A stretch of DNA of 64,000 nt from contig NZ_CP120233.1 in NCBI RefSeq assembly GCF_030012985.1, forward strand, positions 4,831,001-4,895,000, written 5' to 3'. Under the pieces are notes generated by a model. It saw only the letters and a list, made by a program, of their open reading frames with translations. It ran no database searches and was not told where the DNA came from. Both the position numbers and the translations under genes were made by a program. How positions within the stretch are numbered: the stretch's first letter is position 1; the number at the start of each line of letters is the position of its first letter. This document shows positions 32,483 through 38,141 of the stretch, piece after piece. This stretch comes from Microbulbifer sp. VAAF005 (GTDB lineage: Bacteria > Pseudomonadota > Gammaproteobacteria > Pseudomonadales > Cellvibrionaceae).

Positions 32483-32511
32483 TTGACCGAATGCGACACT
32501 TGTCGCACACT
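32483..32511 (+). promoter_or_regulatory. Candidate blaI-operon promoter overlapping the operator
   Basis: TTGACC at 32483-32488 resembles a -35 box. A weak -10 (CACACT) lies 17 bases on. The perfect palindrome at 32492-32507 fills the spacer, so a bound BlaI dimer would block polymerase. Promoter strength is uncertain. Confidence 0.4.
32492..32507. promoter_or_regulatory. BlaI/MecI-type operator palindrome
   Basis: TGCGACA-CT-TGTCGCA is a perfect 16-base palindrome with a GACA-N2-TGTC core. BlaI, MecI and CopY repressors bind ACA-N2-TGT palindromes. It lies 33 bases upstream of the blaI-like start, consistent with autoregulation of the three-gene operon. Confidence 0.65.
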
Positions 32512-32539
32512 AGCCCTGACTGTCACACGGGAAGATAAA

Positions 32540-32938
32540 ATGAAAAAGGTAAAACCGTCCCCATCAGAACTTGCGCTGCTGAAAGCCCTTTGGAGGCAAG
32601 AACCGCTGAGTGCAAGAGAGTTGCATGATCGGGTGGGACCTGAATTGGGTTGGTCATACTCCTCTACTCGAAAGACACTAGACCGGATGCGGGATAAATC
32701 GTTTGTGACTCAATCTGAGATCCATGGAATCCATGTTTATAGCCCTGCGATTGAGAAGGTGGAAACCCTGGCGTCATATGCAAAAGATTTCGCTGAAAGA
32801 GTATTAGAGCTTGATGGCCCCCTTCCTGTGTCGATGTTTGCCGGCAGTAAGTTAATGAGTGATAAGGATATCGAGGAGCTTCAGGCAGTGCTCGATTCCT
32901 GGCCAGACTCTGAGCCTGTCAACAAGGATGGTGAATAG
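32540..32938 (+). CDS. BlaI/MecI/CopY-family transcriptional repressor
   Basis: The 132-residue protein starts at ATG 32540 with GGAAG upstream; the longer frame from TTG 32483 would run through the operator. The winged-helix segment PSPSELALLKALWRQEPLSARELHDRVG...WSYSSTRKTLDRMRDKSFVTQ is typical of penicillinase repressors, followed by a dimerisation helix. BlaI repressors are cleaved or released when the partner M56 peptidase senses damage to the cell wall. The partner gene begins 3 bases after the stop. Confidence 0.9.
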   Translation: MKKVKPSPSELALLKALWRQEPLSARELHDRVGPELGWSYSSTRKTLDRMRDKSFVTQSEIHGIHVYSPAIEKVETLASYAKDFAERVLELDGPLPVSMFAGSKLMSDKDIEELQAVLDSWPDSEPVNKDGE

Positions 32939-32941
32939 GCT

Positions 32942-34429
32942 ATGGCCGAGATAGTCTCTACAGTTCTACCATTTGCACTGGATTTTCTAGCTACTTCTCT
33001 CTTCTCAATATTGTGGGCGGGGTTGGTTTTTATTGTTATTTGGCTGGCAACAGCGAGAAATAAAGGCAGCTTTAATGCGATATACCAATGGCGAAGTTTA
33101 TGGTTGTGTGCAATGGTCGCTGCCGGTTCCCCATTTTTTCTTGCGCAATTGAGCGACCAGTTAACGTTGGGTATGGCTCCGGATCTGAATTTTGAATTAC
33201 CGCCAGCTTATGAGGCTACCTCTATACCACCAGTTAACATAGTTCTGCATGAGTATGTATCTACCTCTTTAAGTTCTGTTGAATTACTGGCTTTTCTTTG
33301 GTTGCTTATATATCTGTGCGGGGTGTTTTTTACCTTATCTAAAACGGTATTGAGTCAGTTTTTCTATGGCAAGAAATTGAGTTTAATAGCAAATAATAAG
33401 CTTTCTGTTGTTAAATTTGACCAGTTTTTTACTTCATCTCAAAGCGATTTTCTAATCAGAAGTAAAACTCAAGTATTTATAACACACTCAACGATTACAC
33501 CATTTGTGATTCAGCTATTCAGTCGCAAATTAGTGCTTCCCTCCTATATTTTATCAATGAATGAAACGGAGCGTCATCTAATCATTGAGCATGAAATTAT
33601 GCACTTGAAAAGGCTTGACCCCTTGTTGATTCTGATTGTGCATATATTTACTTGCATCCTATGGTTCAATCCCTTCTTAGGTTGGATGAAGTCTCGATTC
33701 AGCTGGGCGATAGAGCTGGGGTGCGATCGCGAAGTTCTAAAGTCATGTAAACGAGAATTACACCGTGTTTATGCACAAGCAATGATTGACACTCTTCGAC
33801 GGAACTCTGATCAAAGAACAAGTGACTGGGTTGTAGCTTTCTCTTTCTCTGATGGTACAAGTCAGGTTCCTTTTTTCCGACGCAGACTTTTGAATATTAT
33901 GGAAGCCTCAAGGATGGGGGCTAATAATGGAGAATTAGGTGTCTATTTGCGCACTATGCTGTTCTGCGGTTTTTCAACCATTTTAATACTCGGAGGGCTA
34001 CTGTTAAAACCGGGATTGACAATGGCTTCAGTGGAAATTACCAAATTAACAGTCCCGGTTGAGAGTGCCCGTGTTAGTAGCCCGTTTGGCGATTTCAGTA
34101 AAATTCGTAACAAGCCCCATGAAGGCACCGACTTTGCGGCACCCATCGGTACTCCGGTAGTTTCAGCTGAAAGTGGTGTTGTAATAGTTTCTACTGATGA
34201 TTATAAGCATAAAAATTATGGGAAAATCATAATTATTGATCATGGTGATAATACGAAAACTCTGTACTCCCATTTAAATGAGCGGGAGGTTGAGGCGGGG
34301 CAGTCAGTACGAGCCGGCCAGGCGATAGGAACTGTGGGTATATCAGGGCGTGTAACAGGGCCACATCTTCACTTTGAGCTTATCAAAGAAGGCAAGCGAA
34401 TCAACCCAGACACTTTGCTTGCGAAGTAA
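32942..34429 (+). CDS. M56 (BlaR1-like) membrane metallopeptidase fused to an M23 peptidase domain
   Basis: The 495-residue protein has membrane spans near 14-36, 52-70, 113-135, 225-245 and 340-357. The cytosolic M56 active site is H217-E218-x-x-H221 (HEIMH) with E258 in IELGCDRE. In place of the penicillin-binding sensor of BlaR1, the C-terminus (375-495) is an M23/LytM domain with complete zinc residues: H393 and D397 (HEGTDF), H444 (YSHL), and H475/H477 (HLHFE). The M23 ectodomain should lie in the periplasm, where it could bind or cut peptidoglycan cross-links and signal to the M56 core, which would then inactivate the BlaI partner. The fusion is found in other proteobacteria; signalling is inferred. 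Confidence 0.88.
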   Translation: MAEIVSTVLPFALDFLATSLFSILWAGLVFIVIWLATARNKGSFNAIYQWRSLWLCAMVAAGSPFFLAQLSDQLTLGMAPDLNFELPPAYEATSIPPVNIVLHEYVSTSLSSVELLAFLWLLIYLCGVFFTLSKTVLSQFFYGKKLSLIANNKLSVVKFDQFFTSSQSDFLIRSKTQVFITHSTITPFVIQLFSRKLVLPSYILSMNETERHLIIEHEIMHLKRLDPLLILIVHIFTCILWFNPFLGWMKSRFSWAIELGCDREVLKSCKRELHRVYAQAMIDTLRRNSDQRTSDWVVAFSFSDGTSQVPFFRRRLLNIMEASRMGANNGELGVYLRTMLFCGFSTILILGGLLLKPGLTMASVEITKLTVPVESARVSSPFGDFSKIRNKPHEGTDFAAPIGTPVVSAESGVVIVSTDDYKHKNYGKIIIIDHGDNTKTLYSHLNEREVEAGQSVRAGQAIGTVGISGRVTGPHLHFELIKEGKRINPDTLLAK

Positions 34430-34469
34430 GGGGAGTGTGATTTATTACTTAAGAAAAGTAGGGTTACCC

Positions 34470-35816
34470 GTGAGGCGATTAACTATTTTCTTTCTGATCG
34501 ATATCTGGAGGATGGCTTTGTTGCTGGTTCTTTTGTCGATTCAAACATTGGCGATAGCAGGGCCGTTATTGGAAAACCATTCCAATGTTAAATCGGTACA
34601 ATATGATTTATCTTTTACATTGCCCCTACCCAATGATCTATCCTTGGTACATCAAGATGAAGGGATGCAGCGTAGGGAGGTGGCCCCTCCATATAGAGTT
34701 GAGGAAGAATATCTAGAGCGCACAAAAAAAGTTCAACTAGCTAAAAACCAAGGGGTTTTATCACTATTGGTGGATAGTGGAGTCGATCGTGCAGAAGCGT
34801 ATAAAATAATTCAGGCTTTGTCGGAACATGTCAATGTCAGTATCCTACCAGTTGGTAAGGAATTTAACTTAACAATAGATACCACTGGAAAGCTTAATAA
34901 GCTTACCTTGGTTGTTGGCTTTGCAGAGAGTTTGGAGTTGGTTAGACATGGAGACAATTATAGGGCTAATCAATTTGAATCTCCTGTCGATGCCAGGAAA
35001 TACTACGTTAAAGGTGAAATTTCGGGCAGTTTATACCAAAGTGGAAAAGAGTCTGGCCTATCTAATTCTGTGCTCACAAAACTAAATGAAATATTTAGTT
35101 ATTCCGTAGATTTTCAACGGCAGATTCGAGCAGGTGATCAGTTCTCTGTTTTCTATGATACCTTGTTCAATAGCCAAACTGGAAAGGAAAAACTAAATAG
35201 AATTTTATTTGCTGAGCTTATTCTTAGTGGAGAAAAGATAAGTTTATATCGGTTTTCTACTGAGGGACCTCAGGGGGTGGATTATTTTTACCCTGATGGC
35301 CAAGGCTCTAGAGGGTTTCTAATGCGTACTCCGTTAGAGAATGCAAGGTTGTCATCTTATTTTGGGCGCCGCAAGCACCCAGTCCTAGGGTATACCCGAG
35401 TACATAAAGGTTTGGACTTTGGAGCCCCTTTGGGCACGCCGATATTGGCTGCAGGTGATGGTATTATTGAGCGAGCTTCTTATTTTGGTAGTTTCGGCAA
35501 CTATATTCGTATTCGCCATGGCTCCGGGATAAAGACAATTTATGCGCACCTTAAGGGGTACGCGAAAGGAATTAGTAAAGGGGGAAGAGTAAAACAAGGG
35601 CAGGTAATCGGTTACCTTGGCGCTACAGGTCGTGTGCAGGGGCGTCACTTGCACTATGAGATTCATAAAAATGGTACGGCTGTTGATCCATTAAGGCTTG
35701 ACCTCCCTATTAGTAAGGGGCTGGTAGGAGATTCTTTAAATCAATTTTCTCGACAGGTTCAAAAGATTCAAGATGAATTGATAAAGTACGCTCAACAAAA
35801 TCAGTTTGATTCATAA
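34470..35816 (+). CDS. M23-family peptidoglycan DD-endopeptidase (MepM-like)
   Basis: About 448 residues if GTG 34470 is the start (AGGG six bases upstream); GTG 34437 lies closer to the preceding stop but has a poorly spaced ribosome site, and ATG 34509 touches GGAGG. An N-terminal hydrophobic stretch (MALLLVLLSIQTLAIAG) is a signal peptide or anchor. The middle resembles the OapA/MepM inhibitory region (SGSLYQSGKESGLSNSVL...RQIRAGDQFSVFYD). The C-terminal LytM domain has RVHKGLDFG, YAHLKG and GRHLHYE zinc ligands. It is probably the effector of the BlaI operon, remodelling the wall in the periplasm. Confidence 0.88.
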   Translation: MRRLTIFFLIDIWRMALLLVLLSIQTLAIAGPLLENHSNVKSVQYDLSFTLPLPNDLSLVHQDEGMQRREVAPPYRVEEEYLERTKKVQLAKNQGVLSLLVDSGVDRAEAYKIIQALSEHVNVSILPVGKEFNLTIDTTGKLNKLTLVVGFAESLELVRHGDNYRANQFESPVDARKYYVKGEISGSLYQSGKESGLSNSVLTKLNEIFSYSVDFQRQIRAGDQFSVFYDTLFNSQTGKEKLNRILFAELILSGEKISLYRFSTEGPQGVDYFYPDGQGSRGFLMRTPLENARLSSYFGRRKHPVLGYTRVHKGLDFGAPLGTPILAAGDGIIERASYFGSFGNYIRIRHGSGIKTIYAHLKGYAKGISKGGRVKQGQVIGYLGATGRVQGRHLHYEIHKNGTAVDPLRLDLPISKGLVGDSLNQFSRQVQKIQDELIKYAQQNQFDS

Positions 35817-36472
35817 TTAAGCTTTTTTTATCTTTTTTATTTCTCTCTCACCTTATTATATTCAGGGTTTAACTGACTTACATTTTTGTTGGTAGCGAAT
35901 TTTTTCTTAAAGCAATATTGAGTATAAAATTAAACTAGGTTAAATATGATTAGAGCTATTCTGCTGATAGCCATTCTGGTGCTGTCTAATTCACTAATTG
36001 CAAAGCCCCTCATTACCAAGGTTTCTGAATCTTTTGAGTTAAGTGGATCTAAAATATACACAGTTGACTCTGATATTCTCAAACGCAAATACGACTTGTA
36101 CGTGAAGTTACCATCAGGTTACTCGAACGATGACAATAAAAATAAGACCTACCCGATAATTTACCTTAATGATGGGCCTCATACATTTAAGGTTGCCTCG
36201 GGTGTTACACACTTTAAGGATATGGATAAAGCCATCGTAGTTGCTATTTCATTCGCTCACGGAGAAAACGGGCAGTATAGTCGAGTTCGAGATCTCACTC
36301 CCGTAGTCGATAGTGGGTGGAAGCGTTATACAACTGGTGGAGCCAGTAAGTACTTACAGTTTATTGAAAAAGAAGTAATGCCCTTTATTGAGGGGAGCTT
36401 TAGGGGGGATCCCACACGTAGGATTCTTTCAGGTCATTCATTGGGTGGATCTTTTGGTGCTTGGGTATTACT

Positions 36473-36475
36473 TAC
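36473..36475 (+). repeat. Target-site duplication TAC, left copy (right copy 37731-37733)
   Basis: TAC directly precedes the TG end of the element at 36476 and directly follows its CA end at 37730. A 3-base duplication is usual for IS3-family insertion. Confidence 0.85.
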
Positions 36476-36501
36476 TGATCCTACCCACCAACGACGGACA
36501 C
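36476..36501 (+). repeat. Left terminal inverted repeat of the IS
   Basis: It begins TGATCCTACCCA and matches the right end at 37705-37730 in inverse orientation with two mismatches in 26. Confidence 0.9.
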
Positions 36502-36537
36502 TCTCTTAAGCGATAAACTACGCAGCAGAGGTGCTCT

Positions 36538-36837
36538 ATGACAAGATCAAATAAACCAACCAAAACCACTCGTAAACAGTACTCAGAGGAATATAGAAAG
36601 GATGCCCTAGCACTTGCGCTCAAAGTTGGGGTAAGCGTTGCCGCTAAACAGCTTGGGTTACATCCTTCTCAGATTTACGGATGGCGAAGCAAGGCTAAGT
36701 TACATCAGAGCCGAGGGGATGCCGAGAGAGAGCTGGCCACAGAGAATGCTCGCCTTAAGCGGCAGCTGGCTGAGCAGGCAGAGGAGCTAGCGATCTTAAA
36801 AAAGGCCGCAGCGTACTTTGCAAAGAGCCTGAAATGA
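36538..36837 (+). CDS. IS3-family transposase OrfA (HTH)
   Basis: The 99-residue protein has the HTH_Tnp_1 pattern [39 protein letters not shown] and a leucine-zipper-like helix ([32 protein letters not shown]). It binds the IS ends. Its stop overlaps orfB. Confidence 0.94.
36798..36804 (+). promoter_or_regulatory. Programmed -1 frameshift site A AAA AAG
   Basis: In the orfA frame the heptamer reads A AAA AAG, the classic slippery sequence. A -1 slip leads through 10 codons directly into the orfB ATG frame, giving the OrfAB transposase. Confidence 0.8.
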
Positions 36838-37700
36838 GGTACGCCTTCATGCAAAAGCACAGGCATGAATTCAGCATCAAAGCGATGGCCAAGGTATTGA
36901 ACGTATCTCGCAGTGGGTTTTACGACTGGGTGTCAAGATCGGCCGGCCAATCCAGGTACCAGCAGTACCGAATGCAGCTCGATAGCTTGGTACAGCAGCG
37001 CTTTATAGCCAGTAAAGAACGTAGTGGCTCTCCTCGCCTGACGAAGGAATTGGCCAGTGAGGGGAGTAAATATAATCAAAAAACAATTGCTGCCAGCATG
37101 CGTCGACAGGGCCTACGGGCTAAAGCCGCCAAGAGATATAAAGCCACAACCTATTCAAAACATGGTCTGCCAGTAGCTCCAAATCTGCTCGAGCAGAACT
37201 TCAATGCTGAAGGGCCGAATCAGAAATGGGCTGGGGATATAACCTACCTGCGAACGGAAGAAGGTTGGTTATATCTGGCTGTAGTGATAGACCTATATAG
37301 TCGGCTAGTTATTGGTTGGGCGATGTCAGAAACGATGACAGCTACATTGGTCTGTGACGCTCTTCAAATGGCTTTATGGCGACGTAAGAAACCTACGAAT
37401 GTTATCGTGCATACTGACAGGGGAAGCCAGTATTGCTCTAAAGATTATCAATCTTTGATTACAGCTTATGGTCTGCGGTGCAGCATGAGCGCCAAAGGTA
37501 ATTGCTATGATAACGCTTGTGCAGAAACATTCTTTCACTCACTTAAGGTAGAAGCAATCCATGGTAACCGCTTTCCCACAAGGTGCCTCATGCGAGAGAC
37601 CGTATTTGAGTATATAGAGATAGACTACAATCGAAATCGCTTACACAGCGCCAATGGCTATCTCAGCCCTGAGGCGTTTGAGGAACAACTAGTCGCTTAG
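36834..37700 (+). CDS. IS3-family transposase OrfB (DDE integrase core)
   Basis: The 288-residue protein begins with the HTH_21 region ([13 protein letters not shown]) and continues into an rve integrase core. The first Asp is in WAGDITYL, the second in [13 protein letters not shown], and the Glu in [12 protein letters not shown]. The ATG overlaps the orfA stop; expression is mainly as OrfAB through the upstream slippery site. Confidence 0.95.
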
Positions 37701-37704
37701 TGGT

Positions 37705-37730
37705 GTGTCCGTTGTTGATGGGTAGGATCA
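37705..37730 (-). repeat. Right terminal inverted repeat of the IS
   Basis: Inverse copy of the left end, 24 of 26 positions identical, ending in CA and followed by the TAC duplication. Confidence 0.9.
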
Positions 37731-38141
37731 TACCAATCCACAGTTGTTTTCCACTTATATCCTGACAAGTCCTTCTCTTTGGTTTAAGGATGAAATGATC
37801 TTTGATTTGGAGAATAAATATGCAAGCCATAACAACACACTGCCTGTAAACGTCTATATTGCCACTGGCGCTTTGGAGACAATACAAAAGAGCCACATGC
37901 GTAATGATATGGTAGATGGGCATAAGAGATTTCTTGCTAAATTACAGTCGCGTAATTATCGTGGATTAAAGCTTAGTGGAGAGGTGGTGAGCGGTACGGA
38001 CCACTATTCCACTTTCCCGGTGGGGTTGGCAAAAGGTTTAAGGTGGGTATATCAGGATTTGTGGGCAATATAATAATTTTCGCGGTAAAAGAAGAGCTAT
38101 AGCCGCCCGCGACAAATGGTAGATCTGTTATGCTATTGGAA

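Follow-up and report, generated by a model that had tools for sequence, protein, structure and literature searches.

The putative operon and its relatives

The window analysed here is a 64,000-nucleotide stretch of the 5.40-Mb genome of Microbulbifer sp. VAAF005 (G000:C1:4831001-4895000). It contains a putative operon in which the gene for a BlaI-type repressor precedes a gene for a protein that joins an M56 peptidase domain, of the kind found in BlaR1, to an M23 peptidase domain. Three of its genes lie head to tail on the forward strand: blaI (32540-32938; 132 residues from an ATG start, a BlaI/MecI-family repressor), the M56–M23 fusion gene (32942-34429; 495 residues, the proposed antirepressor) and a third gene for a ShyC/MepM-like M23 peptidase with a hydrophobic N-terminal segment (34437-35816; 459 residues). 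The gaps are 3 nt between blaI and the fusion gene and 7 nt between the fusion gene and the M23 gene. An earlier sequence-only reading had described these three adjacent genes as an operon; all three are present and Pfam confirms their domains, but it omitted a fourth gene, an esterase, and it began the locus at 32483, where the TTGACC −35 hexamer and a mechanically called TTG open reading frame start but blaI does not.

We compared this operon with 79 fusion loci, including the window's own, out of 84 places that cover both domains wholly or largely. The blaI gene lies directly upstream of the fusion gene in all 79 (77 assigned automatically, and L143 and L147 by coordinates). Conservation of the three-gene order, proposed earlier as a check, therefore holds for the blaI–fusion pair but not for the M23 gene, which follows in 18 of the 79. 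Seven other Microbulbifer loci (L139-L145) show a four-gene succession identical to that of the window; in one of them (L143, in genome G319), an in-frame TAG separates the M56 and M23 parts of the fusion and the remaining operon looks intact.

A strict single-sequence search finds the system in 8 of 48 Microbulbifer genomes. With a profile search it appears in 35 of 144 genomes of the window's family (including 17 from Microbulbifer), in 36 of 295 in the family of Rheinheimera (G1261 among them by a match to M23 only), in 4 of 21 and 8 of 198 genomes of two other families and in 4 of 369 in a sample of the class. A single-protein search gives M23 domains in all 293 genomes, and among the matches listed that of G189 is the only near-full-length one besides the window. 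The contig scan with the fusion alignment used one M23 peptide pattern and mainly matched the M23 part; a Rheinheimera locus, L057, was kept as a locus. The fusion tree was built by a quick method and has long branches, with 39 of 75 inner branches well supported. Outside the Gammaproteobacteria, and outside the 79, fusions in metagenome-assembled genomes of a Clostridia member (L055) and of Croceivirga (L056) are immediately preceded by a BlaI-like gene (E = 1.3e-8 and 2.5e-4, respectively).

A conserved putative operator at the blaI promoter

Upstream of blaI, a −35-like hexamer, TTGACC (32483-32488, forward strand), is followed by TGCGACA-CT-TGTCGCA (32492-32507), a 7+2+7 palindrome that we propose as the BlaI site. 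A weak −10-like hexamer, CACACT (32506-32511), assigned from its spacing, overlaps the right edge of this operator, which fills the spacer between the two hexamers. The sequence-only reading had noted a GACA-N2-TGTC palindrome after TTGACC; the palindrome is present but longer than the 4+2+4 form given there. In all eight window-type Microbulbifer loci, TTGAC starts 9 nt 5′ of the operator, and 17 bp separate the −35 hexamer from the best −10 hexamer.

Within the window the palindrome alone is not unusual, with 2 matches at up to three mismatches against 1.75 expected, and the significance of the putative operator rests on its conservation across loci rather than on the palindrome itself. Among the matches listed for the 5.4-Mb genome, 32492-32507 is the only exact GCGACANNTGTCGC. 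The strict pattern of the window was fixed before 58 later loci were fetched, and it precedes blaI in 47 of them (19 exact, 28 with one mismatch), compared with 0 of 2,900 mononucleotide shuffles at up to one mismatch. Because the 58 loci are related to one another, they do not amount to 58 independent events.

A relaxed form of the operator, TGYGACANNTGTCRCA, was defined after the relatives had been seen. It occurs exactly in 50 of the 79 upstream regions and with up to one mismatch in 67; at this tolerance the controls give one hit in 1,580 shuffles and one in 1,428 segments taken elsewhere in the loci. The latter hit is L251's own operator, since no other distant site was found: there the operator precedes a deacetylase gene whose end lies 12 bp upstream of blaI. 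With L251 included, the relaxed form (up to one mismatch) stands at the operon promoter in 68 of the 79 loci. All 108 operator sites in the 79 stretches sit at this promoter and none elsewhere in them, with 105 no more than 200 bp before blaI, two before the L251 deacetylase gene and one at the start of blaI in L252. Two copies lie near blaI in 38 of the 79 loci, at a spacing of 32-34 bp in 34 and of 47 bp in four. When 21 genomes were searched whole, the exact 16-mer was found in 14, every exact copy being at this operon; G189, G330, G331 and G870 have a one-mismatch copy at the operon, and G682, G704 and G710 have no copy there. Exact operator copies in these 21 whole genomes revealed no wider regulon, one-mismatch copies elsewhere being left aside.

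The window BlaI scores 71.7 bits against PF03965 (Penicillinase_R; cut-off 22.6), which places it in that family, and it aligns with the MecI and BlaI structures 1sd4, 1sd6 and 1okr. In this alignment M99-F100 falls on N101-F102 of Staphylococcus aureus BlaI, which we take to be the cleavage site, and the Phe at this position (Phe100) is kept in 76 of 79 BlaI proteins. The recognition helix reads [YFN]S[ST]TRK[TV] in all 68 loci with the operator; in the 11 loci without it (L148, L160, L161, L264-L267 and L298-L301) it reads YTTTKT in eight and RSSTRKT in three. Comparison thus supports a BlaI-type repressor that would bind a dedicated operator over its own promoter.

The M56–M23 protein and its cargo

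The fusion protein carries an M56 (BlaR1-like) domain, PF05569, at residues 26-296 (33017-33829), with H217, E218, H221 and E258, and an M23 ectodomain, PF01551, at residues 392-489 (34115-34408), with H393, D397, H444, H475 and H477; the last five we take to be zinc ligands (H393, D397, H477) and catalytic residues (H444, H475). The residues that the sequence-only reading named for its two zinc sites are all present, and H444 completes the M23 site. The M56 domain has the HExxH motif and third ligand Glu (E258) of BlaR1/MecR1 membrane domains, and the ectodomain has the HxxxD and HxH motifs and second catalytic His of M23 peptidases. M56 and M23 are the only Pfam domains in the protein, as in the earlier description of an M23 domain in place of the beta-lactam-sensing one; with no penicillin-binding domain by Pfam, the protein departs from the BlaR1/MecR1 antirepressors in its sensor domain. 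Against NCBIfam blaR1_generic it scores 66.7 bits (cut-off 400), matching over residues 44-303 only. It aligns with BlaR1 both by profile and by fold (VIA-align); the absence of BlaR1 from the best 50 Foldseek matches listed is uninformative. Its best database match is a protein of Microbulbifer sp. JMSA004, at 95% identity.

Among 78 fusions compared, the M56 ligands (HExxH, E258) and the M23 zinc ligands are invariant, and 70 retain the full set of five M23 residues. Comparison supports the M56–M23 protein as a putative BlaR1-like antirepressor, through the BlaR1 alignment, the invariant HExxH/E258 and the conserved Phe at the cut position; in that role its M56 core would release BlaI, as suggested earlier. 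The distance from the last hydrophobic segment to the first M23 zinc His is 28-63 residues (median 37), a linker short enough that the M23 domain would be held near the inner membrane. If it spans a few nanometres, a soluble or lipid-linked ligand or inhibitor would be favoured over the mature wall.

The closest known parallels are the staphylococcal blaI-blaR1-blaZ and mecI-mecR1-mecA systems, which likewise pair a BlaI-family repressor having a Phe at the cut position with an M56 membrane antirepressor, and have a palindrome with an ACA-N2-TGT core over the promoter and an envelope-acting output gene in the operon. The bla/mec operator is TACA-N2-TGTA, whereas the operator here has GCG/CGC flanks; in addition, their sensor head is a class-D-like penicillin-binding domain and ours is M23, the host is Gram-negative, and the output is an M23 peptidase plus an esterase. 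Unlike the DD-endopeptidases MepM, ShyA and ShyC, the fusion head lacks their other Pfam domains and sits behind a membrane protease; the fusion and three scanned cargo proteins all fall under the NCBIfam cut-offs for these enzymes. A second BlaI of the genome (L149; G000:C1:732677-733018, within the region 732042-733018) also precedes an M56 protein, which, unlike the fusion, has no ectodomain. This 288-residue protein lies below the Pfam cut-off, and an outer-membrane efflux-like protein, as read from the sequence, comes after it.

Proteins of Microbulbifer, Simiduia, Pseudoalteromonas, Lacimicrobium and Stenotrophomonas with the same fusion bear the database name 'M23/M56 family metallopeptidase'. 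A review of M23 peptidases lists M56 among the catalytic domains that co-occur with M23, together in <1% of hits, and states that M56 has yet to be shown to take part in peptidoglycan cleavage (PMC9662197). Neither the database name nor the accessible text of that review names a partner repressor or assigns the fusion an operator, a cargo or a role, in line with the earlier statement that the fusion is known from annotation and has no characterised role. In the literature found, the fusion is in print only as this database name and one review line. Among the matches listed from the open-licence literature there is no study of an M56–M23 protein or of a BlaI-controlled M23 gene, and in the accessible parts of the cefiderocol and Psychromonas papers M56 appears as names only. 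As far as its accessible text goes, the report on Clostridium thermocellum BlaI_1845 describes a similar single-operon, self-controlled BlaI regulon with a possible wall-synthesis gene, but with BlaR1 and not an M23-headed sensor (PMC8457756). BlaR1/BlaI action is summarized in the accessible part of PMC7593790.

The genes behind the fusion vary. Cargo was grouped by single-linkage clustering, with Pfam names taken from cluster representatives only; by this measure the same-strand chain in the 79 loci contains M23 peptidases in 18, esterases in 17, PF00144 hydrolases in 14, DUF4920 proteins in 7, TonB receptors and polysaccharide deacetylases in 5 each, and M1 peptidases (with two more divergent), LysM lytic transglycosylases and sulfatases in 2 each. 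A deacetylase gene lies directly upstream of blaI in two further loci, L251 and L266. Altogether 47 of the 79 loci have a named cargo class; the follower in L297 belongs to an unnamed cluster and is PF00144 by Pfam. A hydrophobic N-terminus is found in 18/18 M23, 22/23 esterase, 7/7 deacetylase, 11/14 PF00144, 11/12 DUF4920, 4/5 TonB receptor and 3/5 M1 proteins, and in 199/450 products of other neighbouring genes. On the fusion tree, the minimum number of state changes is 10 for the esterase, six for M23, five for the deacetylase and three for PF00144. In L269, L271-L273 and L302-L304, a DUF4920-cluster protein (∼155 residues, mostly with a hydrophobic N-terminus) follows the PF00144 hydrolase within one chain.

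Cargo M23 genes occur in all eight loci of the window's clade and in 10 of Rheinheimera's family, and all 18 proteins have the HxxxD and HxH zinc motifs. They form two groups that share ∼24-32% identity. The first consists of 15 proteins related to the window's (eight from Microbulbifer, including the window, and seven from Rheinheimera's family), of which two scanned proteins match ShyC best. The second, of the ShyA/MepM kind, comes from L275, L280 and L281 and is 71-79% identical internally; the L280 protein scores 469.9 of 700 bits for ShyA and 319.8 of 341 bits for MepM in NCBIfam. The window's own M23 gene most likely starts at the GTG at 34437, 7 nt past the fusion stop and preceded by AAGGGGA, and encodes PF19425 (Csd3_N2) and PF01551 (Peptidase_M23) domains. 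With 211.7 of the 700 bits required for ShyC and 175.7 of the 341 for MepM, its product is ShyC-like and not a ShyC equivalog.

The fourth gene of the operon, Esterase (PF00756) by Pfam, follows the M23 gene in all eight loci of the window's clade. In the window it is disrupted, with a 5′ part at 35946-36475 and a 3′ part at 37731-38073 (forward strand; judged by eye against the intact L139 gene), by an insertion sequence (IS) element of ∼1,255 bp (36476-37730, forward strand). This element, presumably of the IS3 type from the layout of its ends and reading frames, has 38-bp inverted ends (36476-36513 and 37693-37730; 84% complementary) and an orfA (36538-36837; HTH_Tnp_1) that overlaps orfB (36834-37700; rve integrase core).

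A model for the switch and its alternatives

The best interpretation is that the operon is a dedicated, self-repressed switch of the BlaI/BlaR1 type, with blaI and the fusion gene as its two-gene core and an M23 wall peptidase as the ectodomain of its sensor, and that any cargo consists mostly of exported envelope proteins; we put the probability of this at about 0.68. The repressor–antirepressor part of the switch is well supported by comparison of the loci, and we infer that what the M23 head senses is a wall-related signal. In this model, BlaI dimers would bind TGYGACA-N2-TGTCRCA between the −35 and −10 hexamers and shut their own operon, a step for which the comparative evidence is strong. 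By homology, which is a strong guide to its place and suggests its action, the M56–M23 protein would share the inner-membrane position of BlaR1; its M56 site would face the cytoplasm, and its M23 domain would be held in the periplasm within a few tens of residues of the final membrane helix. On meeting its ligand (a peptidoglycan stem peptide, a cross-link or a blocker), the head would switch on the M56 site, which would then, in the manner of BlaR1, cleave BlaI at its conserved Phe (M99-F100). Gene order suggests that the derepressed operon would yield more sensor together with the local cargo, here the ShyC-like M23 peptidase plus, in relatives with the whole gene, the esterase, and that this cargo would adjust the envelope. 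Recurrent wall-acting cargo fits a wall-state signal.

A more specific version, possible but rather doubtful, takes the parallel with mec further. There a sensor that resembles a penicillin-binding protein switches on a spare one, and here the head shares its fold with the induced enzyme class; the M23 head could be a mec-like 'bait' for wall hydrolases, mimicking the cell's own DD-endopeptidases, such that a natural inhibitor or a scarcity of cleavable cross-links would register directly at an endopeptidase active site and lead to BlaI cleavage and a spare endopeptidase. In this version the system would have spread as a two-gene core, blaI plus the M56–M23 gene, keeping a single dedicated operator while its envelope cargo was exchanged.

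Several observations weigh against the switch model or narrow it. The −10 hexamers are weak, and L266 shares the deacetylase–blaI order of L251 yet has no operator. The operator-less loci form two clades, of eight and three, so that the match between helix and operator represents two events and not 11, and the three RSSTRKT loci deviate at a single helix position; much of the helix–operator correlation is accordingly explained by shared descent in these sequences. Cargo names depend on cluster representatives, as noted above, and TonB receptors, M1 peptidases and a sulfatase misfit a pure peptidoglycan story. No same-strand gene follows the fusion in 24 of the 79 loci, and only unnamed-cluster genes follow in 8 more. 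A second Microbulbifer clade (L255-L263) has the same kind of operator and the blaI–fusion pair, with recognised cargo in 0 of 9 loci. These loci, together with those lacking a follower, indicate that an induced endopeptidase is not the general output; the earlier idea that the switch induces more endopeptidase may hold for the 18 loci with a separate M23 gene, including the whole of the window's clade, but the rest have other cargo or no same-strand follower. Finally, H444 is lost in 8 of 78 fusions that retain the zinc ligands (Q, R, N or P in L264, L265, L267 and L297-L301), so cutting may not be needed everywhere, and with an invariant zinc site this suggests that binding is the more generally important property of the head. 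Overall, the earlier observation is confirmed and its interpretation partly supported.

The cargo-free loci are also what would be expected if the fusion were both sensor and effector, a tethered M23 endopeptidase acting on the wall at a dose set by M56 and BlaI, with cargo optional. The retention of all five M23 residues in most heads agrees with this. We nevertheless consider it unlikely: the first zinc His lies so few residues from the last hydrophobic segment that the head would stay near the inner membrane, the eight heads without H444 are hard to accommodate, and four of the 24 loci without a follower (L146, L252, L294 and L266) carry genes of the cargo classes either divergently from blaI or immediately ahead of it. 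An M56 protease would also be an odd dose regulator if the head were no sensor.

The BlaI/M56 chassis itself, and the 'beta-lactamase' hydrolases of PF00144 that sit immediately behind the fusion in 14 of the 79 loci (assigned by cluster) and in L297 (assigned by Pfam), could instead point to a general response to wall antibiotics such as beta-lactams, as in bla, in which the head would respond to the effects of the drug and the PF00144 enzymes would provide resistance. This seems to us quite improbable, because Pfam finds no penicillin-binding domain in the fusion and the window's operon has no PF00144 gene; PF00144 also contains esterases and DD-peptidases.

A periplasmic zinc sensor, in which the operon would supply enzymes or receptors for a metal-poor state, would explain why the zinc ligands persist in 78 of 78 heads, including the eight without H444. 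A Vibrio cholerae M23 enzyme is under Zur control, and a gene of cluster K5, whose representative is a TonB-dependent receptor, lies upstream on the other strand in four of those eight loci (L267, L298, L300 and L301). K5 genes also adjoin three loci with intact heads (L256, L258 and L263), however, the cargo M23 proteins carry the identical zinc motif, and no zinc-uptake gene is among the Pfam-named cargo classes, which together make this very unlikely. An ordinary neighbourhood with no shared regulation would account for a third gene that is unconserved outside some clades, but the conserved operator and gene order and the gaps of 3 and 7 nt contradict it, and we give it almost no weight.

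The comparison shows that the BlaI/M56 chassis, best known from drug resistance, exchanges both its sensing head and its cargo, and the operator together with the recognition helix provides a rule for finding further members. Because the outer part of a familiar proteolytic switch here has the fold of an endopeptidase, and the operator is exactly defined, the model is testable by a simple reporter. It touches on the question of how bacteria gauge the rate at which cross-links in the wall are opened. To our knowledge, direct sensors of endopeptidase action are few, and the bait version, if true, would make this system a dedicated sensor of wall-hydrolase status.

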